From Tenericutes bacterium MZ-XQ (lineage in GTDB: Bacteria; Bacillota_I; Bacilli_A; Acholeplasmatales; Acholeplasmataceae): DNA of 64,000 nt. The notes under the pieces were generated by a model. That model was not told the origin of the DNA. It saw nothing but the letters and a program-made list of their open reading frames with translations, and searched no databases. Position 1 is the stretch's first letter. Each line of letters starts with the position of its first letter. The stretch spans positions 1,618,858-1,682,857 of the forward strand of contig CP017950.1 in assembly GCA_002838205.1 (NCBI GenBank), written 5' to 3'. Positions 4,998 through 38,865 of this stretch are shown piece by piece. A program made the translations under genes and the position numbers.

Positions 4998-6845
4998 ATG
5001 ACAAAAAAACAACTTATTATTGAAACCAGTTCGGTCATTATATCAATTATATTTATTATAACTGCATTCATATTTCAACATCTTTATGATGATGCTTGGT
5101 TTGTAGTTGCATTATTTGGTCTGTCTTTTGCAATAGGAGGTTATGCTAAAGCAAAAGAAGGTGTACTCGCAACCATTGAAAACAAGTCATTAAATGTAGA
5201 GATTTTAATGATTCTAGCTGCATTAGCTGCATTTTTCGTTGGCAGTTATGAAGAGGGCGCAATCCTTATTTTAATCTTTTCAATCAGTGGTGTTTTAGAA
5301 TCTTATGCTACATCAAAAAGCGAGAAAGAACTAACAAGTTTACTTAAGTTAGCACCAAAGACTGCAATATTGTATGAAGATGGAAATGAGACAGAAGTTC
5401 AAATTCAAAACTTAAAAATTTCTGATCAAGTCATTGTGAAAGTTGGACAGCAAGTTCCTGTAGATGGAAAGATTATAAAAGGTTCTACTTCTTTAGACCA
5501 ATCACCGATTACTGGTGAATATGTTCCTGTAGGAAAACATAAAGGTGATGAGGTTTTTGCTGGATCTATCAATATAGAACAAACAATTATTGTAGAAACA
5601 ACAAAAAGTCCAAAGGACTCTGTGGTTCAGAAAATTGTTGATTTTGTAAAAGAAGCACAGGACAATAAAACAGAGTCACAAACACTTATTAATAAAATCG
5701 AAAAATATTATGTATATTTTGTTATTATATTTGCGGTAGGATTTATGTTTCTTCCACCGCTATTTGGGTGGCTAGATCGTGCTGAATCATTTAGACGAGG
5801 TGTGGTCGTTTTAGTTGTAGGTTCGCCTTGTGCTTTAGTAGCATCAATTACTCCAGCAATGTTAGCGAGTTTATCTAACGCAGCTAAAAAAAGAATTCTT
5901 ATTAAAGGTGGAAAAGCTTTAGAAAACTTAATTGGTATTAAAGCAGTTGTTTTTGATAAAACAGGTACCATTACTTCAGGTGTTCCGAAAGTTGTGGAGA
6001 TTAAAGCGATAAAAAGCGAAAACCTATCTGAGATTAAAAAAATTGTATGCGCCATTGAAAAACAATCCAACCATCCACTTGCAAAAGCTGTGGTTGAACA
6101 CTTAAAAGATTGTGAAGACATTAAAGGGTTAGAAACCAAAGAGATTTCTGGAAAAGGTATGGAAGCAAACTATAAAGATAGCACTTGGAAAGTTGGAAAA
6201 TTTGATGCAAAATCATCTGAGCATTGTGATCGTGCTTTAAAATCAGCAATGCAAAAAGGCTATAGTATGATATATATCATTAAAAACGATGAAATCGTTG
6301 GTTACATCGCTTTAACCGACAGTATTAGAGATAATGTCAAAGAAGTCACCAAAGCGCTTAAAGACCAAAATATAACGCCTGTTTTACTTACCGGTGATCA
6401 TGAGGCTACCGCTAAAATAATTTCTAAAGAGGCTGGCATTGATCACTTTGAAGCAAACTGTATGCCAGAAGATAAAGTTAATCGAATCAAACAGCTTCAA
6501 AAGGATTTAGGTAAAGTACTTATGATTGGTGATGGTATCAATGATGCACCAGCTCTTGCTACTGCTGATGTTGGTGTTGCAATGGGAGCAGGAACTGATG
6601 TATCTTTAGAAACATCTGATATTGTCTTTATGAATAACCAAATCGAAAATCTTCCTCAAACATTATTACTTGCAAAACGTATGAGATCAATAACAATTCA
6701 AAATATTATATTTTCAATAAGTGTTATAGCCCTTCTTATGATTTCTAACGTCTTTGGATTGATAGATTTACCACTTGGTGTAGTTGCACATGAAGGTTCA
6801 ACCATTTTAGTCATTTTGAATAGTTTAAGGTTGTTATTTAAATAG
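4998..6845 (+). CDS. P1B-4 type heavy-metal P-type ATPase (probable Fe2+/Co2+ exporter)
   Basis: 615 residues. The phosphorylated Asp is in DKTGTIT at about residue 320, the TITGE-like actuator motif is SPITGEYVP, and GDGINDAPAL is the hinge. The membrane metal motif is SPC (about 276-278), not CPC, and the last helix carries HEGST (about 598). There is no N-terminal metal-binding domain. SPC plus HEGST and the missing domain define the P1B-4 group, whose studied members export ferrous iron or cobalt; a zinc or cadmium role is less likely. Ribosome site CGGAGG precedes ATG. Monocistronic, with its own terminator. Confidence 0.88.
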   Translation: MTKKQLIIETSSVIISIIFIITAFIFQHLYDDAWFVVALFGLSFAIGGYAKAKEGVLATIENKSLNVEILMILAALAAFFVGSYEEGAILILIFSISGVLESYATSKSEKELTSLLKLAPKTAILYEDGNETEVQIQNLKISDQVIVKVGQQVPVDGKIIKGSTSLDQSPITGEYVPVGKHKGDEVFAGSINIEQTIIVETTKSPKDSVVQKIVDFVKEAQDNKTESQTLINKIEKYYVYFVIIFAVGFMFLPPLFGWLDRAESFRRGVVVLVVGSPCALVASITPAMLASLSNAAKKRILIKGGKALENLIGIKAVVFDKTGTITSGVPKVVEIKAIKSENLSEIKKIVCAIEKQSNHPLAKAVVEHLKDCEDIKGLETKEISGKGMEANYKDSTWKVGKFDAKSSEHCDRALKSAMQKGYSMIYIIKNDEIVGYIALTDSIRDNVKEVTKALKDQNITPVLLTGDHEATAKIISKEAGIDHFEANCMPEDKVNRIKQLQKDLGKVLMIGDGINDAPALATADVGVAMGAGTDVSLETSDIVFMNNQIENLPQTLLLAKRMRSITIQNIIFSISVIALLMISNVFGLIDLPLGVVAHEGSTILVILNSLRLLFK

Positions 6846-26380: not shown

Positions 26381-26518
26381 GACCTCCTTATGTTAGAGGT
26401 CCACCATAATCACTTACAGCGGACGCATTAGAAAACCGCCACAAATGTGTTCGTTCTAATCCGACATCCCATGATTAGACACTTAACGCTTCCTAATTAC
26501 TCTGTAGGTTCATTATAC
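26381..26518 (-). promoter_or_regulatory. THF riboswitch and expression platform of folT
   Basis: The minus strand reads GCGTTAAGTGTC, then GGGATGTCGGATTAG, then AATGCGTCCGCTGT, the conserved segments of the tetrahydrofolate riboswitch; the aptamer spans about 26414-26508. A TATAAT box is at 26513-26518. After the aptamer GACCTC (26396-26401) pairs with GAGGTC (26381-26386), and six T residues run into the start codon. The 3' arm contains the AAGGAGG ribosome site. Binding of THF should turn folT off. Confidence 0.9.
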
Positions 26519-26545: not shown

Positions 26546-27196
26546 TTATTTTAAAATCCAATCTATAGGTTTTAGACCTTCTTTTTCTAAAAAATAATTT
26601 GTTTTAGAGAACGGTTTTGATCCAAAAAAACCTCTTGATGCTGATAATGGAGATGGATGTGCAGATGAAATAACATGATGCTTATTTAGATCAATGTATT
26701 TCATAAAACTTTTCGCATGATTCCCCCATAAAATAAATACCACTGGTTTTTCTTTATCATTTACTTTTTTAACTGCTTCTAAAGTGAAAGTTTCCCACCC
26801 TTTTTTTTGATGAGATAGTGGTTCATGCAGTCTAACTGTTAATACTGTGTTTAACAATAAAACGCCTTGTTTTGCCCAATGCGTAAGATTTCCTGTTTTT
26901 GGATATGGGATATTTAAATCTGATACTAACTCCTTATAGATATTTTTTAAACTCGGTGGATAATCTTCATTTTCCACACTAAATGCTAGCCCATGCGCTT
27001 GATTAAGATTATGATATGGATCTTGTCCAATGATGACTACCTTAACATCTTCATACGGAGTTAGTTTAAAACAGGATAACCTCTTTTCTTTTGGTGGTAA
27101 TACAACATGATGTGCATCTTCATCTTTTAAAAAAGCGATTAATGCTTTGAAATATGGATTTTCTAATTCTTTTTTGATTAAATCATCCCAAGTCAT
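26546..27196 (-). CDS. ung: Uracil-DNA glycosylase
   Basis: 216 residues from ATG 27196 (MTWDDLIKKEL), preceded by AAGGTGA. The catalytic water-activating motif GQDPYHN, the GLAFSV loop, LLLNTVLTVR, FILWGNHAKS and the C-terminal SSAHPSPLSASRGFFG are all present. It removes uracil from DNA. Its start overlaps the end of the sipW gene by 14 bases, so it may be read through from the matrix-like operon. Confidence 0.95.
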   Translation of the reverse strand: MTWDDLIKKELENPYFKALIAFLKDEDAHHVVLPPKEKRLSCFKLTPYEDVKVVIIGQDPYHNLNQAHGLAFSVENEDYPPSLKNIYKELVSDLNIPYPKTGNLTHWAKQGVLLLNTVLTVRLHEPLSHQKKGWETFTLEAVKKVNDKEKPVVFILWGNHAKSFMKYIDLNKHHVISSAHPSPLSASRGFFGSKPFSKTNYFLEKEGLKPIDWILK

Positions 27197-27788
27197 GATC
27201 TTCACCTTCAGTTTTTGGTTCATCCTTTTTCTTAATTAACTTAACAATCACAACAACAATAGTGATGTTAACAATCAATAAACCAACTAATACAGGATTT
27301 CTTAGTCCTGAAACTATCGTTCCTAAGAATGGCAATCTAAACACATAGGCACCAATCACTTGATCATATGTTAAATCAGTAATATTACCGTTTTCATCAT
27401 ATATTGTATCAACACTGGAGTTGTTGTCACCTTGAGTGATATACGCACCTGTCTGATCATCAATATCAATGAGTCTATGGACAATTCTAATTTTCACCCA
27501 AACTGTTTCACCTTGTGAATTTTGTCCTCTTGCGTAATTATAAAATGAGATGACATCATCTACTTCGATATCTTCTTCATCAACTTTTTTAAGCATGATG
27601 ACATCACCAGGCTCAATGGTAGGCTTCATGGATTCTGTTAATGTGGAAATCGTTGTTAATTGAAATCTAAAAACATCAATCACTTTCTCAGGTAAAAACA
27701 AACTTAAAGAAACATAGACAAGTAAAATGAGTGTAACCAAGTAAAATAAAACTGTTTTAATTGTTTGAGATTTGTTCTGTTTTTTCAT
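27183..27788 (-). CDS. sipW: Signal peptidase I, SipW (S26B) type, catalytically complete
   Basis: 201 residues. An N-terminal membrane segment (about 12-30) leads to TLTESMKPTI with nucleophile Ser53. The general base is His104 in IRIVHRLID, the mark of S26B enzymes, which have His instead of Lys. Asp121 lies in TQGDNNS. A C-terminal helix (about 165-190) follows. SipW releases TasA-type secreted proteins in Bacillus. It is the only one of three tandem SipW-like genes here with a full set of active residues. Overlaps ung and the upstream gene. Confidence 0.88.
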   Translation of the reverse strand: MKKQNKSQTIKTVLFYLVTLILLVYVSLSLFLPEKVIDVFRFQLTTISTLTESMKPTIEPGDVIMLKKVDEEDIEVDDVISFYNYARGQNSQGETVWVKIRIVHRLIDIDDQTGAYITQGDNNSSVDTIYDENGNITDLTYDQVIGAYVFRLPFLGTIVSGLRNPVLVGLLIVNITIVVVIVKLIKKKDEPKTEGEDHDLG

Positions 27789-28423
27789 CTTTTTTGATCC
27801 TTTAGTATTTTATCTTTATCTTTAAACATCACATAATGAACAATATATACAATTAATGCATGTAATATAATCATCGTTATGAATCCTCTAGGTGTCGATG
27901 CTGTGTAATAGAATATGCCAATGATGTTAGCTTCATCAGTATATATACCTTCGATTTCATCATAACTATACCTATTTCTAATGACATCATCAAAAGTAGC
28001 TTCGACTTCTTGACTGATTATATCATTATCTAAGATTTCGACTTCCCAATAATAGTTGTTGCCATAAAGCCCAAAAACCAATACTCGATCTCCAGAGTTT
28101 AAAGTAGTTTTATCTATGGTCTTAAGTCTTACGACTTCACCTGTCAAATCTTCGTCGATTTCTTGATCTTTACTAATCGCGATCACATATCGATAGTTAA
28201 AAATTTCTTTAGATAAATCTTTGGATATCAGCGGTAAAGCCATAAACACTAAATGAAGCACTGCTAGGATAACAATGCTTCCAAATATGATTTGTTTAGT
28301 TTTCTTTTTATGCTTAGGTTTTTTACTTTTTTTAGTAACTACCTGTTCTGATTTATGATTTAAATATAGTAATAAATCTTCAGTTGATAATAATTCATTC
28401 AAGATTCCACATCCTAAATGCAC
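27785..28423 (-). CDS. SipW-like membrane protein without catalytic residues
   Basis: 212 residues. A basic N-terminal part (about 20-42), a membrane segment (about 44-66), an outer domain and a C-terminal membrane helix (about 178-198). The outer domain follows the outline of the SipW neighbours: LNSGDRVLVFG matches their xxxDDVISF strand, and YDEIEGIYTDEANIIGIF matches YDQVIGAYVFRLPFLGTI. I see no serine, histidine or aspartate in the catalytic places. The relation is weak and judged by eye. Start is GTG 28423; TTG 28402 (LNELLSTED) is a good alternative. Confidence 0.6.
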   Translation of the reverse strand: MHLGCGILNELLSTEDLLLYLNHKSEQVVTKKSKKPKHKKKTKQIIFGSIVILAVLHLVFMALPLISKDLSKEIFNYRYVIAISKDQEIDEDLTGEVVRLKTIDKTTLNSGDRVLVFGLYGNNYYWEVEILDNDIISQEVEATFDDVIRNRYSYDEIEGIYTDEANIIGIFYYTASTPRGFITMIILHALIVYIVHYVMFKDKDKILKDQKR

Positions 28424-28989
28424 TAATCTTCATCGCTTACCTCTTTTTTGTCTTCAACCTTTTGCCCATGTTTAACAATGATGACAATGCCTGTTATAAT
28501 TAATCCGTTGATGACAATAACACCAATACCAAATGGACTTTTGATAAACTCAATAATGCTTCCTAAAACAGGAATTCTAAAAGCATAGCCTCCAACAATT
28601 CGATCCGATAAAATCACTCCAAAAGGAACGGTTGCTCCTTCAGCAATCACAGATATACGATATGTATCAGTATCAACTTCAGTGATACTATCAACATAAT
28701 ATGTGACCATTTCTGTATCACCATCATAGTTAATATCTGCTTCAAAGGTGATTAAATCCCCTTCTTCTAATTGACTAGCATTTACTTTATTGATAAACAC
28801 AAGATCATTAGGTTTAATTGAAGGTTCCATTGTGTCATATTTCGCTATATAAGTTCTTACTTGAAAAATATTAATGGTTTGTTTAGGTATAAAAGCTTCC
28901 ATAAGAATGAATAAGACTAAGAGTCCAAGTAAGACAAACATTGACCAGAAAGCTACATCTTTTATAACAGATTTTGTTTTATGATTCAT
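28423..28989 (-). CDS. SipW-like protein, predicted inactive signal peptidase
   Basis: 188 residues with the same layout as SipW: membrane helix about 14-30, YDTMEPSIKPNDLVF at about 51-65, and a C-terminal helix. The catalytic Ser is Thr53, the His region reads MVTYYVDSI with no His, and the Asp region reads AEGATV with no Asp. The fold is therefore likely kept without activity, perhaps as a chaperone or partner for SipW or its substrates. Ends one base into the next gene. Confidence 0.8.
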   Translation of the reverse strand: MNHKTKSVIKDVAFWSMFVLLGLLVLFILMEAFIPKQTINIFQVRTYIAKYDTMEPSIKPNDLVFINKVNASQLEEGDLITFEADINYDGDTEMVTYYVDSITEVDTDTYRISVIAEGATVPFGVILSDRIVGGYAFRIPVLGSIIEFIKSPFGIGVIVINGLIITGIVIIVKHGQKVEDKKEVSDED

Positions 28990-29028
28990 ATATGACCCAT
29001 CCCTATATTTATAGTAATTATTGATGTC

Positions 29029-29037
29029 ATTATATCA
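29029..29037 (-). promoter_or_regulatory. Extended -10 promoter before the SipW-like trio
   Basis: TGATATAAT on the minus strand (TATAAT at 29029-29034) about 40 bases before ATG 28989. There is no clear -35. It would let the signal-peptidase genes be transcribed without the upstream c-di-GMP switch. Confidence 0.5.
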
Positions 29038-29059
29038 TATTTTTAAACTTTTTATGACA

Positions 29060-29090
29060 AAGCCAGCATTTTTTATGTTCATGCTGGCTT
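29060..29090 (-). terminator. Hairpin after the repeat-protein gene
   Basis: The ten-base stem AAGCCAGCAT/ATGCTGGCTT has an 11-base loop. In the leftward direction it is followed only by TGTCAT, so termination should be partial; the T run is better for rightward transcription. It may separate secreted proteins from peptidase genes by partial stop or RNA protection. Confidence 0.55.
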
Positions 29091-29095
29091 TTTTA

Positions 29096-30400
29096 TTAAT
29101 TTTCGTACAAACCCCATGAAGCTGGTGTTATATCTGGTATTTCGTTTACGGTTTGTTGTAATGCTTGATATACAGCATCATTATAGAATACAACATCTCC
29201 TGATTGATATACATGATATGAATACCAGTCATAACCTGTGAGTCTATTCCAAGCATTTTGAATAGTGCCTGGTGCACCTTGGTTTGCGTTAGTTGCATTA
29301 ACAACAACATATACTTCACCATTATAGACAACATATTCACCAAGAGTATAGGTGTTCAGTGAATTGTAGTATATGGTTGCCATACCATTCCAACTGTTTT
29401 GAGTTGTACCTGGTATATCAGATGAGTTAAGACTATTAGCTAGTTCATAAACATCACCTTGATACATAACTAAATCACCATTATTATATGTGTTATATTG
29501 TTGCCACTCTTGAGTGTTTATCGCTTGCCATATACCTTTTGATTCTAAAGAACCTGGAACAACTGTTCTGTCTTTACCAGTAACTTTGCCTTGAAGAGCC
29601 ACATAGAATAAACCATTATATAATGTGTATTCTGTATTGTTAGGTACTGAACCATTAAATGTAGGAACATTCAATACTGTCCATGCTCCATTTGTTCCTG
29701 GAACAGATCCTGTAGCCCATCCACCATTGGTTGTAATGTAATAATTGCCATTGTACTCGACAATATCACCATTAGCATACACATAGTTTAATGAGAATGT
29801 TAAATCACCATATAATGCCCAGTCATTTTGGGTGCCTGGTTCTGATGTTGTATAGTAACCTTTATAAATCCAAATTGAACCATTATGATATACAATGCTA
29901 TTAAGTTCAGATGCTTGTCCTGTTGTCCAACTTAACGTATCAGTAACTTCAGGTGCCCAAGGGCCATTTATACCTGATGTCTCTGGATTTGCATTTGTAT
30001 GTTGCCATTGAGCAACATAAATGTTTTCATTAAATAAGACGATATCTCCTGGATAATAAGTGATTTCTGCATACCAGTTTAGATCGTTATATACAGTCCA
30101 ATTATTTTGAATGGATGGTTCATTATTTAGAGTATATGAACCTTTGTATTCCCACATTTGACCATTAAACCAAACGAGGTTTCCAGTTGTATATGGTGTT
30201 TGTGCATCATAATATGAGATGCCATTTGGAGAATTAGGACCGAATGTCCAAGTACCTACTGTCACTTGACCATTTGCTTGATCTTGAGCATTTGATATCG
30301 AACTTGCCCAAAAAGCAAATGTATCATTTGTAGTTAGTGATAACATGAAAAGCATTACAATTAGTAATGTTGATAAAATACATTTATGACATTTTTTCAT
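29096..30400 (-). CDS. Secreted protein with eight carbohydrate-binding (CBM5/12-like) repeats
   Basis: 434 residues. The signal peptide runs through a hydrophobic core into FAFWASSISNAQ, the Phe-Ala-Phe/Tyr-Trp pattern seen in SipW-cleaved TasA/camelysin precursors; VTVGTWTFGP follows. The rest is about eight repeats of 40-48 residues with the pattern Y-x2-GD-x-V-x-YNG-x2-Y-x-A...PG...W, e.g. YANGDIVEYNGNYYI and YQSGDVVFYNDAVYQ. This is the pattern of chitin/cellulose-binding CBM5/12 modules. No catalytic domain is present, so the likely role is to bind or link polysaccharide outside the cell. Confidence 0.8.
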   Translation of the reverse strand: MKKCHKCILSTLLIVMLFMLSLTTNDTFAFWASSISNAQDQANGQVTVGTWTFGPNSPNGISYYDAQTPYTTGNLVWFNGQMWEYKGSYTLNNEPSIQNNWTVYNDLNWYAEITYYPGDIVLFNENIYVAQWQHTNANPETSGINGPWAPEVTDTLSWTTGQASELNSIVYHNGSIWIYKGYYTTSEPGTQNDWALYGDLTFSLNYVYANGDIVEYNGNYYITTNGGWATGSVPGTNGAWTVLNVPTFNGSVPNNTEYTLYNGLFYVALQGKVTGKDRTVVPGSLESKGIWQAINTQEWQQYNTYNNGDLVMYQGDVYELANSLNSSDIPGTTQNSWNGMATIYYNSLNTYTLGEYVVYNGEVYVVVNATNANQGAPGTIQNAWNRLTGYDWYSYHVYQSGDVVFYNDAVYQALQQTVNEIPDITPASWGLYEN

Positions 30401-30426
30401 GAAATCACCTCCTAAGGTTTAGGTTT

Positions 30427-30448
30427 AAAAGCGACTCAATAGAGTCGC
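30427..30448 (-). terminator. Attenuator hairpin between tasA-like and repeat-protein genes
   Basis: Perfect stem GCGACTC/GAGTCGC with a four-base loop, followed by TTTTAAA on the minus strand. A short T run suggests partial termination, giving more of the TasA-like protein than of the repeat protein. Confidence 0.65.
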
Positions 30449-30476
30449 ATTTGATATATGACTTGTATAATAAGAA

Positions 30477-31067
30477 TTATGCTGATAAAGAAGAATCAAC
30501 AGAGAATGTCAAATTAAATGTAATCACACCATTTGCTACCAAATCATAGTCATTTGCATCTACTGGTTCATCAATAGTTACTGTAACAGTTACTTCTACA
30601 GAACCACCATTTACTGAAATAGATGTACTTGCTAGTGAAATAGCAACATTCACATAATTATTTGGTGTACCATTATCATCCCAGCTAACAACTGCTCCAT
30701 CAATAAACACATTAGATTCAACCACTGATAATGTTCCTTCAAATCCATCTGCAGCAGTACCTGCTTCATCCCAATCAACATTGTAAGTGTAAACTACTTG
30801 TGTAACAAGTGTTTCTCCTTGACCAGCTGGTGTGCTATCTGATATTCTGCCAGCAGGTACTAAAATATTATTAATATTATTTGCATTTCCTGCACCTTCA
30901 CCTAAAGTAACAGTTGTTGTAACATCTTGACCAGAACCAATAGTAATAGTTTCGTCTGCTGATGCAGTTGCATCTGATACTGCTCCTGCCCAAAACGCAA
31001 ATGTAAATCCACTAACTGCTACCGCTAACATAACTAATAAACCAATAACTAATTTTCTTTGTTTCAT
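30477..31067 (-). CDS. TasA/camelysin (CalY) family secreted protein
   Basis: 196 residues. The signal peptide (about 1-27) ends in FTFAFWAGAVSDATASA, the characteristic site for SipW. The mature part is beta-rich: many Val/Thr strands, NVAISLASTSISVNGG, and a C-terminal VITFNLTFSVDSS like other TasA domains. Family members are biofilm fibre proteins or cell-surface metalloprotease-like proteins. It is the intact one of two tandem copies and lies downstream of the c-di-GMP switch. Assignment rests on signal-peptide type, operon and fold pattern. Confidence 0.8.
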   Translation of the reverse strand: MKQRKLVIGLLVMLAVAVSGFTFAFWAGAVSDATASADETITIGSGQDVTTTVTLGEGAGNANNINNILVPAGRISDSTPAGQGETLVTQVVYTYNVDWDEAGTAADGFEGTLSVVESNVFIDGAVVSWDDNGTPNNYVNVAISLASTSISVNGGSVEVTVTVTIDEPVDANDYDLVANGVITFNLTFSVDSSLSA

Positions 31068-31113
31068 AAATAAATCTCTCCTTTGTTTTTAACCTTTTTT
31101 TTATTTTTATTTT

Positions 31114-31688
31114 TTATTCAACAACTTCTTCTTTCGGTTCTACACTAAAACTTAACGTGAAACTTAAATCCTGACCCTTAATAGCTTCAAATGCAGCAAC
31201 CGAATCTTCCACATTTGCATCTAAAGGATCATCTACTTCGCTTTCATCAAGAGGTTCAATCAGTCTAACTACAACAACGACTTCAACTGCGGAATTGAAT
31301 AATTCATTCACATGCAAGTCTTTAGTGCCATTAATCGTAATTTCAACTAAATGAGCATACTCATCAGAACCACCAATCAATATACTTGAAGCTTCTACAA
31401 TCAAATTCACACTTTTTACTAACTCCTTATCAACTGATACTGAGTAAGTAAAACTTGCTTCTTCATATTGTCCAACGAAGAACGCTTTGCCTTTAGTACT
31501 AACCGTCCAGTGAACTCATCTCCGACTTCAACAATTTGAAGGTTTGCTTGTTCGCCTCCAAACTCAATGATTACATTAGAGTTTGTATTGACATCATTCC
31601 AATAAGCAACCGCGGCAGTCGATGTAAATGCTAAAGCGATAACTAATAATATAATGATCAAAATTTGAACATGTTTTCCTCTTAGCAC
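31114..31688 (-). pseudogene. TasA/camelysin-like gene broken by a frameshift
   Basis: The first frame starts at GTG 31688, eight bases after AGGAGGT, and reads a signal peptide ending in TAAVAYWNDVNTNSN, a SipW-type site. After VEVGDE the sense passes to another frame near 31512-31517, which continues VHWTVSTKGKAFFVGQYEEA and runs to a stop at 31114 through LSFTLSFSVEPKEEVVE. One missing base explains it. The two parts together would make about 190 residues, like the intact neighbour. A sequencing error or programmed shift is possible; I saw no slippery site. Confidence 0.75.
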
Positions 31689-31716
31689 ATAAACTACCTC
31701 CTAATTACAGGCTATG

Positions 31717-31743
31717 AAAAAAGCCAACGATTATGCCGTTGAC
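31717..31743 (-). terminator. Terminator of the c-di-GMP riboswitch platform
   Basis: Minus-strand stem GTCAACG/CGTTGGC with loop GCATAAT, followed by TTTTTT. It lies between the aptamer and the first ribosome site, so it is the probable transcription switch. Confidence 0.85.
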
Positions 31744-31810
31744 TATCTTTTTCTAGTTGTTAAATATAAAAGGCCCTAGATAATCAGCATGTCATAACTT
31801 TTTAAAGTAT

Positions 31811-31885
31811 TAATGACAACTGGCTACCATTGCAGGCCCTATAGTTTTGCGTCCTTAAGTTTCCTTAAGTTTGCCTTTAACATTA
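31811..31885 (-). promoter_or_regulatory. Cyclic-di-GMP-I (GEMM-I) riboswitch aptamer
   Basis: The minus strand reads GGCAAA, the stem CTTAAG-GAAA-CTTAAG with a GNRA tetraloop, then GACGCAAAACTATAGGGCCT, then TGGTAGCCAGTTG. These are the ordered landmarks of the GEMM-I class: tetraloop hairpin, GACGCAAA receptor junction and a second arm ending in AGCCAG. P1 closes by TAATG (31881-31885) with CATTA (31811-31815). The second arm is short. It controls the TasA-like/repeat-protein genes through the terminator at 31717-31743. Confidence 0.85.
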
Positions 31886-31921
31886 TGTTTTTGAACTATG
31901 ACCGTATCATAATTCATTATA

Positions 31922-31949
31922 ATTATATCTTATTCTCATAAAATGTCAA
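31922..31949 (-). promoter_or_regulatory. Strong promoter of the matrix-like operon
   Basis: TTGACA (31944-31949), a 16-base spacer and TATAAT (31922-31927) on the minus strand, both perfect. Transcription would begin about 30 bases before the aptamer. The gap 31689-32092 therefore holds promoter, riboswitch and terminator, plus the left flank of the IS91-like element. Confidence 0.85.
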
Positions 31950-32092: not shown

Positions 32093-33400
32093 ATGGACCC
32101 TATCTTACTCAAATATAAGTTTAGAGATCTCTTAGCCTTCGCTGCGATGCAGGGTAAGGATGTCTATGAAAATGAACTGAATAAACTTTCAAATTTGAAA
32201 GCCTATCGAAAGCCAAAACTAACCATTCAATCCATCTTTCAAACATACTGGCCCATATTTAAACCTTTGTTTATCGATAGACTAAGACCTGCCATCATTT
32301 CTAATGTTGAAAAAATGATTGACTGTAAAAATTTATCTAAAGGACATCTTTTTTTCGAGTGTCCTTCTTGTGATAACTTTCATCTCCAAGGTTTATCTTG
32401 TCATTCTAGATTTTGTGTTTCTTGTAACCAGAACTATCGTGAGAAAAGAACGATTGCTGTTCAATCAAAACTTTTAGATGTCCCTCACCGTCACTTCGTC
32501 TTTTCTATCGCTAGAGAACTTAGAGATTACTTTAGAATTTATCGGGGGCTTTTTGATGTCTTTTTCTCATCTGTTAATGAAGCGCTTCAAGCACTTGTCT
32601 TTTCATCAAAGATTGCAGTTAAAGAAGATCGTAGACTTGGTCTCATTGCTTTTCTTCATACCTTTGGGCGTGATCTTAAGTTTAATCCTCATATTCACGT
32701 TTTGGTTGCTGAAAGAACGCTCGATCTCAATCAAAACTTGCGAAAGTTTTCTTACTTTCATTTTGAAAAACTTAGACTTTACTTCCAACTTGCTTTACTT
32801 AGAAATATCTCAAATTACTTAAAGGTCCACGCGAGTAAGGACATCTATAACCGCTTCAATCGTTTGAGATCTTCTCTCATCTCAAAATATAAGAAAGGCT
32901 TTTATGCACATGGTCCAAAACTTAAAGATTATGGTTTTCTGAATGCTGCGAAAAAAGTTTCTGATTATATCACACGTTATGCTTCACGTCCTGCAATTTC
33001 TGAAGAACGTATTTTGAATCTCGATACTTCTACCCATATGATCACTTGGACCTATGATCCTCATGAAGATGATGATAAATCAGAAGATGATCCTTCATTT
33101 CTTGGTAGACAAACCATCACTGAACATGTCTTTAGGTTTATTGCCAAACTCATCGTTCACATTCCAGATGAGCACTTTCACACCATTCGCTATTTTGGTT
33201 TCTATGCAAATAAATCAAAGAAATCGGTCGCTACTTTCAAAAAACTACTTTCAAATGCTTCTATTAAACTCAAACGTTCTCGCTCAAATTGGATACATAT
33301 GCTAAAATCAATTTATAAGTATCATCCCATCTTATGTTCATGTGGCCACATCATGAAACTTAATCTAGATTATTCTTTACTAAGAGACCCCGGAGGTTAA
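32093..33400 (+). CDS. tnp: IS91 family transposase
   Basis: 435 residues. An N-terminal zinc finger has CPSC...CHSRFCVSCN (about 85-115). The metal-binding HUH motif is NPHIHVLV (about residue 203), followed by helical segments with the candidate tyrosines in YITRYASRP and YFGFYANKSK. These are Zn_Tnp_IS91 and Y2-transposase features. It nicks single-stranded DNA and attaches to it through tyrosine. The C-terminus has another Cys pair (CSCGH). It appears intact. The ATG follows a TATAAT-like stretch closely, and I see no strong ribosome site. Confidence 0.85.
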   Translation: MDPILLKYKFRDLLAFAAMQGKDVYENELNKLSNLKAYRKPKLTIQSIFQTYWPIFKPLFIDRLRPAIISNVEKMIDCKNLSKGHLFFECPSCDNFHLQGLSCHSRFCVSCNQNYREKRTIAVQSKLLDVPHRHFVFSIARELRDYFRIYRGLFDVFFSSVNEALQALVFSSKIAVKEDRRLGLIAFLHTFGRDLKFNPHIHVLVAERTLDLNQNLRKFSYFHFEKLRLYFQLALLRNISNYLKVHASKDIYNRFNRLRSSLISKYKKGFYAHGPKLKDYGFLNAAKKVSDYITRYASRPAISEERILNLDTSTHMITWTYDPHEDDDKSEDDPSFLGRQTITEHVFRFIAKLIVHIPDEHFHTIRYFGFYANKSKKSVATFKKLLSNASIKLKRSRSNWIHMLKSIYKYHPILCSCGHIMKLNLDYSLLRDPGG

Positions 33401-33404
33401 ACCT

Positions 33405-33737
33405 ATGCCAAAATATTTTAATACCATCAAATTGAAAATTTCTGATGAAGAGAAAAAACTTCGCTTAGAAGACTATCGCTATGCCCTTCAAAACGGCTTT
33501 TACTTTGGACCACCTGTTGATATCCACGATTTTATGAATAAAGATATCTTTGATGAATTCGTTCGTTTTAAATGTCTTGTTTGTGGCACTGAACATGTTG
33601 AGGAATATGATATCTTACTAGAAATTTGGGATGAATCTATTTCTGATTATCCTAAAATATACTGTGAAAACTGTGGGAAAGAATCTTCTGTACCACTTGA
33701 TGTTTATCATAAACAAACCTTAAAGGTTTTTAGATAA
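33405..33737 (+). CDS. Small cysteine-rich protein next to the IS91 transposase
   Basis: 110 residues starting four bases after the transposase stop, with ribosome site GGAGG. CLVCGTEHVEEYD (about 56-68) and YCENCGKESS (about 86-95) form a likely four-cysteine zinc ribbon. The first half is charged. I recognise no family. Its tight coupling implies an accessory role in transposition or carriage as cargo of the element. Confidence 0.6.
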   Translation: MPKYFNTIKLKISDEEKKLRLEDYRYALQNGFYFGPPVDIHDFMNKDIFDEFVRFKCLVCGTEHVEEYDILLEIWDESISDYPKIYCENCGKESSVPLDVYHKQTLKVFR

Positions 33738-38635: not shown

Positions 38636-38865
38636 ATCAAAAAAGTGATATAATGAATATGCAATGAAAAGGAAAAAGTAATTTAAATATGTGTGTTTAT
38701 AGAAAGTTGGGCTGATGGAAACCAATAACACTGATTTAAATGAATGGGGCCTTGGAGCATAAAGTATCATCGGCTTTAACGATGTTTGAGGGCTAGATTT
38801 TAATCTAGAACTAAGGTGGCACCGCGTTTAAAGACGTCCTTAGATGATAAGGACGTCTATTTTTA
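38625..38865 (+). promoter_or_regulatory. Trp T-box riboswitch of trpS
   Basis: Promoter TTGAAG (38625-38630), 18 bases, TATAAT with extended TG (38649-38654). The leader holds a stem I region with the specifier in GAATGGGGCC (TGG = Trp), the T-box AAGGTGGCACCGCG at about 38812-38825, and the terminator GACGTCCTTA/AAGGACGTC followed by a T-rich run. Uncharged tRNA-Trp would open the antiterminator and allow trpS expression. Confidence 0.93.

Follow-up and report, generated by a model that had tools for sequence, protein, structure and literature searches.

Leader and gene order of a SipW-type operon in Tenericutes bacterium MZ-XQ

The subject of this study is a cluster of six genes on the minus strand of a 64,000-nucleotide stretch of contig CP017950.1 from Tenericutes bacterium MZ-XQ (Acholeplasmatales); this whole stretch is termed the window in the following. 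The genes, referred to here as tas1, tas2, cbm, sipB, mid and sipA, encode two secreted precursors, a secreted protein with repeats resembling carbohydrate-binding modules (CBM) of families 5 and 12, and three membrane proteins related to signal peptidases. They are preceded by a leader in which a promoter, a riboswitch aptamer of the cyclic di-GMP (c-di-GMP) I class, an intrinsic terminator and a ribosome-binding site follow one another (Table 1).

Table 1. Features of the operon and its leader, in the order of transcription (positions counted from the first letter of the window)
Feature	Position	Strand	Remarks
Locus as a whole	31949 to 27183	-	Leader, then tas1, tas2, cbm, sipB, mid, sipA
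Promoter, sigma-70-type consensus TTGACA-16-TATAAT	31922..31949	-	Hexamers match at 12 of 12 positions
c-di-GMP-I riboswitch aptamer	31812..31885	-	RF01051, 64.0 bits; gathering score 35
Putative switching arm	31779..31795	-	Predicted partners: aptamer 3' part (31828-31813), or GATAGTCA via TGATTATC
TGATTATC	31786-31779	-	Section of the switching arm
Putative antiterminator 3' element GATAGTCA	31747-31740	-	Overlaps the terminator stem
Intrinsic terminator stem	31744-31722	-	9 pairs, followed by a T tail; element, stem and tail span 31716..31747
Ribosome-binding site AGGAGGT	31696..31702	-	Directly after the terminator
tas1, N-terminal piece	31419..31688	-	First secreted precursor, SipW-type signal peptide; gene frameshifted here
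tas1, C-terminal piece	31114..31410	-	Frame differs from that of the N-terminal piece
tas2	30477..31067	-	Second secreted precursor, predicted beta-sandwich; intact open reading frame
cbm	29096..30400	-	Secreted; approximately eight repeats resembling CBM5/12; PF02839, 64.9 bits (cut-off 26.2)
sipB	28423..28989	-	SipW-like membrane protein; TIGR02228, 35.1 bits (below cut-off 51.85)
mid	27785..28423	-	Membrane protein, signal-peptidase-like ectodomain; aligns with the sipA profile (hhalign, 97.3%)
sipA	27183..27788	-	SipW/Sec11-type signal peptidase; TIGR02228, 61.9 bits (cut-off 51.85)

A first-pass annotation, made from the letters of the window alone, had proposed a perfect promoter and a c-di-GMP-I-like aptamer with a terminator at this place, and all of these elements were borne out. 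The promoter hexamers agree with the consensus throughout, a covariance search over the window with the GEMM-I model returned a clear match (E = 3.2e-10), and the terminator stem runs into a T tail. A chance match to the aptamer model is ruled out by the score of 64 bits and by its recurrence ahead of the same genes. The aptamer carries the GGCAAA core and GACGCAAA, motifs which we take to contain the ligand-contacting residues G20 and A47 (Vc2 numbering). Among the 153 aptamers collected across the order (see below), 145 have a G at the position assigned to G20 and 149 carry the A47 motif; the G20 motif was not found in two. In 11 orthologous leaders the first hairpin of the aptamer covaries and the terminator is kept. 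A terminator was found in 17 of 20 orthologous leaders, G039 not being counted because its hairpin lies inside the coding sequence, as judged by inspection. On visual inspection, the alignment of orthologous leaders shows promoter boxes comparable to those of the window.

Secreted precursors and signal peptidase-like proteins

The products of tas1 and tas2 are homologous to each other (hhalign, 98.8%). In the window, tas1 is split into two frames. It forms a single open reading frame of 190–215 amino acids in the 19 other operons compared; a programmed frameshift is thereby ruled out, and the interruption must be either a mutation or a sequencing error. An order-wide search with tas1 showed a single TAA, either inside the match or at its end, in each of the genomes G032 and G087. 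When matches to the SipW-signal model TIGR04088 were accepted at E values up to 0.1, 8 of 15 tas1 sequences and 2 of 17 tas2 sequences were recognized; tas2 of the window was not.

The relationship of these precursors to TasA was approached through predicted structures. For tas2, an AlphaFold2 model was obtained with a mean predicted local distance difference test (pLDDT) score of 76.7, and in a Foldseek search of the PDB Bacillus subtilis TasA occupied ranks 1–3 (prob 0.93, 0.75 and 0.72). TasA also came first in the comparison by VIA (Z 6.0, root mean square deviation (rmsd) 3.5, 116 aligned). The model for tas1, calculated for the orthologue from Tenericutes bacterium MO-XQ, is weaker than that for tas2 (pLDDT 69.8). 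CfaB, the PapG pilin domain, CsuA/B, FimG and CanA are among its best matches, together with unrelated folds; the TasA fibre 8aur appears at rank 30 by VIA (Z 5.7, rmsd 4.5, 126 aligned), and TasA is not among the best 50 Foldseek rows. With all Z scores below 8, these comparisons support a TasA-like fold of both precursors rather than prove it. The earlier description of tas1 and tas2 as camelysin/TasA-like therefore stands in part: two secreted precursors are present and TasA is the top fold match of tas2, at low scores, while the likeness does not extend to a sequence match with TasA.

The PF02839 model matches five stretches of cbm, and eight repeats, the number given in the first-pass annotation, were counted by eye in the translation. 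A SipW-type signal, TFAFWAS, was likewise seen by eye and is not flagged by our signal motif scan.

Among the three membrane proteins, sipA has a Ser-His pair, in ESMKP ... VHR, which we take to be catalytic in SipW-type signal peptidases. Ser53 and His104 are invariant in 20 aligned sequences. The sipA profile matches SEC11A/C, and the score against the Bacillus SipW equivalog NF046067 is 38.8 bits, below the cut-off of 190; judged by its sequence, sipA is predicted to work like SipW though it lies outside that equivalog family. In sipB, Thr replaces Ser and the His is missing in all five aligned operons from the genus of MZ-XQ; in genus g10, all 11 operons aligned keep both residues. As a single sequence, mid gave no signal peptidase match in the profile-library scans, and neither Ser nor His occurs at the matching places in any of 16 aligned operons. 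The three proteins had been called SipW-like, and all are indeed related to signal peptidases; the Ser-His pair, however, is found only in sipA here. Fusions of mid to an N-terminal HTH_3 domain occur in an Izemoplasma locus (L193:8593-9600) and in a Clostridia-labelled one (L189:2080-3069), with 63.1 and 65.1 bits, respectively, against a cut-off of 23, and hint at a signalling role of mid.

c-di-GMP enzymes and further aptamers in the MZ-XQ genome

The genome consists of one contig of 2,157,199 bases and encodes 17 GGDEF and 5 EAL domains. Nine of the GGDEF domains have a GG(D/E)EF motif, three have close variants and five are degenerate. A profile search of the genome retrieved no PilZ domain. 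It also yielded no PF00905 transpeptidase and a single match to PF08245 (Mur-ligase-M), which is in keeping with the wall-less cell presumed earlier, as far as these two wall families are concerned.

Besides the aptamer in the window, RF01051 matches lie at 613598, in a triple tandem at 622183, 622307 and 622432, and, weakly, at 1818611. The aptamer at 613598 and the triple tandem precede operons with SipW-type signal peptides. The operon behind the triple tandem encodes SipW-type peptidases, and that behind 613598 a secreted protein of 2509 amino acids with a CBM5/12-like repeat at its end (20.9 bits with PF02839, under the cut-off of 26.2).

The match at 1818611 (37.1 bits) lacks the GGCAAA and GACGCAAA cores and was rejected as a normal c-di-GMP-I switch, which leaves five convincing aptamers rather than six. 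This divergent GEMM-like RNA (G000:C1:1818611-1818699, identical with L031:10611-10699 (+)) is located before a carboxynorspermidine synthase-like gene and nspC. A full-length DNA match was found elsewhere only in G023, a genome of the same genus as MZ-XQ (96%; 41 genomes searched). The position of the RNA suggests a possible role as a variant riboswitch controlling polyamine synthesis.

The riboswitch recurs ahead of SipW-type operons throughout much of the order

We surveyed 160 genomes of the order, 88 of them of high quality, representing 28 genera. RF01051 is present in 91 genomes (51 of the 88 high-quality genomes) and in 20 genera. GGDEF domains occur in 128 genomes, comprising all 91 with RF01051 and 37 of the 69 without it, the other 32 having neither (Fisher p 1e-14, kinship ignored). 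None of the RF01051-positive genomes belongs to genus g11, which from its small genome size would be phytoplasma-like.

The genetic environment of the aptamers was then linked with the type of protein encoded downstream. The best 150 aptamer matches, from 76 genomes, together with three more from the MZ-XQ genome, gave the 153 aptamers mentioned above, a collection that favours strong aptamers. They fall into 135 clusters, counted as 122 single, eight double and five triple. One triple is actually a quadruple, with four consecutive aptamers ahead of a single SipW-type operon (L081:601-1052 (+)), and the L066 cluster, counted as single, proved in a motif scan to contain a second aptamer; arrays are thus undercounted. 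After removal of 27 clusters with less than 2.5 kb of downstream DNA or no open reading frame in reach, 108 were usable. A SipW-type signal peptide is encoded in the operon downstream of 99 of these, a SipW-type peptidase in 56 and a GGDEF protein in ten. The signal was detected in 3 of 61 control gene runs, which were same-strand runs of open reading frames of at least 80 amino acids (60 for the clusters), not matched in run length and drawn from the window outside the operon, from L031 and from the opposite strand of the 22 named loci described below. The motif used for the signal is a pattern of our own making, which misses cbm in the window and flags an ordinary membrane protein at 4998-6845. 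The comparison with other Acholeplasmatales that the first-pass annotation had suggested thus revealed a recurring pairing of aptamer and SipW-type operon. The same design is found, for example, in genome G005, where a riboswitch operon includes a 745-amino-acid protein with a CBM5/12-like stretch (31.2 bits).

Since aptamers were the starting point of this survey, the question was also approached from the side of the genes. A sipB alignment scan of named genomes retrieved 22 loci, with MO-XQ (CP017948) as the nearest named relative (95% identity). Six of the loci end before the operon start (L179, L180, L182, L184, L189 and L190) and one (L196) has a run of N where the aptamer would be. The other 15 have readable upstream DNA, and 14 of these carry RF01051 there; it is missing only from L195, an Izemoplasma variant for which no tas1 could be identified. 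An alignment search of the order with tas1 matched 29 of the 160 genomes, and the aptamer lies directly upstream of tas1 in 28 of them, 22 being known from the best 150 aptamer matches and six coming from a further scan, which also re-scored G014. The remaining genome, G013, matched weakly (E 9.7e-7), close to the end of a contig. As the tas1 search begins from a protein sequence, it removes the selection inherent in the aptamer-based survey; it does not remove kinship, related genomes not being independent of each other, and the two counts share genomes.

Two further observations concern the composition of the riboswitch operons. A GGDEF gene is the first gene behind the aptamer in G088:C17, G091:C10, G093:C70 and G098:C45, which suggests feedback on c-di-GMP synthesis. 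Larger riboswitch operons (L029:11110-14526; L066:9663-13010) contain a gene pair between two SipW-type peptidase genes, one member with a weak AAA match below the cut-off and the other encoding a large protein, which in L029 matches DUF2357. Two-gene gaps with the same layout between SipW-type peptidase genes are seen in many cluster patterns.

Proposed mechanism of the switch and of coat formation

In the five leaders from the genus of MZ-XQ, TGATTATC and GATAGTCA can form an antiterminator of eight pairs, and free folds of the leaders point to a helix between the arm and the 3' part of the aptamer, here termed the anti-aptamer helix. When these leaders were compared with 500 shuffled versions, which preserve base composition only, the antiterminator ranked 2–7 and the anti-aptamer helix 1–36 (third and first, respectively, for the window), the antiterminator arm having been selected by visual inspection once the leaders were known. 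As the two helices are mutually exclusive and the ligand holds the 3' part of the aptamer, ligand binding should favour read-through. In the absence of c-di-GMP, the downstream arm would capture the 3' part of the aptamer by pairing, the terminator would form and transcription would halt. With c-di-GMP bound, the aptamer would retain its own 3' part, and the freed arm TGATTATC would pair with GATAGTCA, block the terminator and allow transcription of the operon. On the basis of these modelled pairings, the riboswitch of the window very probably acts as an ON switch.

Once transcribed, the operon would provide two small beta-sandwich precursors and the CBM5/12-repeat protein, all with SipW-type signals (that of cbm recognized by eye), along with one SipW-type signal peptidase and two related proteins that lack the catalytic pair. 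Once cleaved, the two small proteins would probably polymerize by donor-strand exchange, as TasA does, and cbm may tie the resulting layer to polysaccharide or to a surface. We counted the fold lists, with donor-strand pilins and the TasA fibre 8aur for tas1 and TasA at the top for tas2, in favour of a polymer. We regard it as likely that the locus is a c-di-GMP-activated surface-protein operon for a TasA-like coat that is processed by SipW and includes a carbohydrate-binding protein; the product would be a matrix or fibre layer. An aptamer match, GGDEF proteins in the genome and TasA at the head of the tas2 fold list, at low scores, were all found, and the overall proposal of the first-pass annotation, a c-di-GMP-switched SipW/TasA/carbohydrate-binding locus, is in this sense supported.

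Alternative explanations

Several observations weigh against this proposal, both on the side of the switch and on that of the product. When a narrower arm was used on the 18 leaders in which a script had located a hairpin, the antiterminator was among the best 5% of shuffles in 6 (the anti-aptamer helix in 10), and for the window leader the anti-aptamer helix dropped to rank 29 and the antiterminator to rank 71 of 200. A comparison of folding states in 19 leaders with the aptamer set aside gave better pairing of the terminator arm in ten, equal in four and worse in five, the hairpin finder having chosen wrong hairpins in G022, G039 and G032. This mixed outcome would also be compatible with an OFF switch, in which bound c-di-GMP would promote terminator formation and shut the operon down, and c-di-GMP-I riboswitches of both signs exist. 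We nevertheless consider repression quite unlikely, as in the five leaders of the genus the TGATTATC arm serves both the anti-aptamer helix and the 8-pair antiterminator, a wiring that predicts ON. It is extremely improbable that the ligand is a related dinucleotide such as 3',3'-cyclic GMP-AMP (cGAMP) instead of c-di-GMP. Six of the 153 aptamers do have A at the position taken as G20 (G031:C10, G031:C40, G106:C32, G113:C35, G128:C1:122672 and G137:C24), presumably the change that distinguishes cGAMP-specific relatives, but the aptamer of the window has G there, like 145 of the 153, and GGDEF domains are encoded in every RF01051-positive genome.

With regard to the product, the likeness of the precursors to TasA comes from a weak fold match and from genetic context, not from sequence. 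The tas1 and tas2 profiles found no PDB sequence match to solved TasA up to an E value of 1, Pfam scans of tas2 from the window and of 15 tas1 sequences returned no TasA family, and the N-terminal tas1 piece of the window scored 16.4 bits against TIGR04088, below the cut-off of 19. Neither model had a Foldseek match with an E value up to 0.001; for tas2 and TasA 5of2, the best E value was 7.3e-3 with a TM-score of 0.35. Unrelated beta-sandwiches lie within 1 Z of TasA in the VIA list for tas2, and the best Z for tas1 is 7.7 in a list that also holds unrelated folds. Given such weak fold evidence for polymerization, the operon might instead yield soluble or membrane-held adhesins and no polymer, with cbm attaching to particles of chitin or cellulose, partnered by the small beta-sandwich proteins. 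The PF02839 match of cbm is a clear domain call, and CBM5/12-like stretches occur in co-regulated operons too, namely in the proteins of 2509 and 745 amino acids described above. On the other hand, cbm shrinks to 95–109 amino acids in L181, L183, L189 and L193 while tas2 and the peptidases persist, as does tas1 where the contig reaches it, and self-polymerizing subunits appear in the fold lists; we therefore judge adhesins without a polymer to be unlikely. The product of the MZ-XQ genome may moreover be incomplete, as tas1 is frameshifted. Together with the loss of Ser and His from sipB and an IS91 element upstream of the promoter that is not at that place in MO-XQ, this could indicate that the operon is decaying in this genome. 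However, sipB lacks both residues in all five aligned operons of the genus and is otherwise conserved, the promoter, aptamer, terminator and remaining reading frames are intact, and the tas1 frameshift is possibly a sequencing error, so that decay appears improbable.

Neighbouring features

The IS91-family transposase gene (32093-33400 (+); NF033538, 218.5 bits) and a small gene at 33405-33737 (+) separate gapA from the riboswitch promoter; in MO-XQ, gapA is directly there. On the other side, the locus adjoins a tetrahydrofolate (THF) riboswitch (26415-26506 (-); RF01831, 73.1 bits) before a gene for an energy-coupling factor (ECF) folate transporter, and such a riboswitch stands beside the locus in 18 of the 22 named loci. 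A T-box leader lies at 38655-38844 (+) (110.2 bits).

Relation to known systems and biological significance

In Bacillus, the tapA-sipW-tasA operon is controlled by regulatory proteins. The operon described here resembles that of B. subtilis in that small beta-sandwich secreted proteins are encoded beside a SipW-type peptidase. It differs by the c-di-GMP-I riboswitch in front, the CBM-repeat protein, the SipW paralogues without the catalytic pair, the absence of a TasA sequence match and the wall-less host. A donor-strand polymer is proposed here by analogy with the available descriptions of B. subtilis TasA (PMC9674648, PMC10151520). In the sipW-tasA/calY/capP system of Bacillus cereus, two SipW-processed filament subunits co-assemble, which parallels the pair of tas1 and tas2; in contrast to the situation here, the words riboswitch and c-di-GMP do not occur in the accessible text of that report (PMC13082335). 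Clostridium perfringens sipW-bsaABCRSD produces a SipW-dependent extracellular polymer, BsaA, that neither Congo Red nor Thioflavin T stains; again unlike here, both words appear once each in the text available for that system, in the reference list only (PMC7395162). As far as these texts extend, they show that the SipW-dependent polymers of B. cereus and C. perfringens are under other control (PMC13082335, PMC7395162).

With its score above the gathering threshold, its core residues and its terminator-type expression platform, the aptamer conforms to RF01051 riboswitches (c-di-GMP-I, GEMM-I). What sets it apart from known members is the position ahead of SipW-type operons through much of a wall-less order, in arrays of up to four aptamers. 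For Acholeplasma laidlawii, 14 proteins with GGDEF and/or EAL domains have been counted, a count that, in the portion of the source available, names no c-di-GMP receptor or target (PMC2408644). According to the accessible part of a paper from 2024, no mollicute except A. laidlawii was known to use c-di-GMP, to which the same paper adds a single protein with an EAL domain from a coral symbiont (PMC11535214). The available text of a study on the related Peloplasma contains neither c-di-GMP nor biofilm nor the string "fibr" (PMC11122141). Within the open-access literature searched, subscription papers being outside its scope, we found no report of this c-di-GMP riboswitch/SipW regulon, no paper joining c-di-GMP, riboswitch and Acholeplasma, and, among the papers listed, no title linking a c-di-GMP riboswitch to TasA. 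The individual parts belong to known kinds. What appears to be new is that RNA wires them together directly, and that this arrangement recurs in much of a wall-less order.

The general picture that emerges is that c-di-GMP, a lifestyle signal, probably acts directly on the outer surface of these cells. As a tentative extension, it is conceivable that across much of the order c-di-GMP acts chiefly via RNA, with arrays of one to four aptamers switching on SipW-processed coat proteins that replace the wall, and that SipW paralogues without the catalytic pair (mid, and sipB of the genus) serve as membrane platforms or sensors for fibre assembly. With RF01051 in 91 of 160 genomes and 99 of 108 clusters leading into SipW-type operons, likely targets of c-di-GMP in wall-less cells have now become visible. 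These riboswitch operons offer a direct and cheap test of the role of c-di-GMP in such cells and suggest a way in which cells without a wall may build a switchable surface layer.

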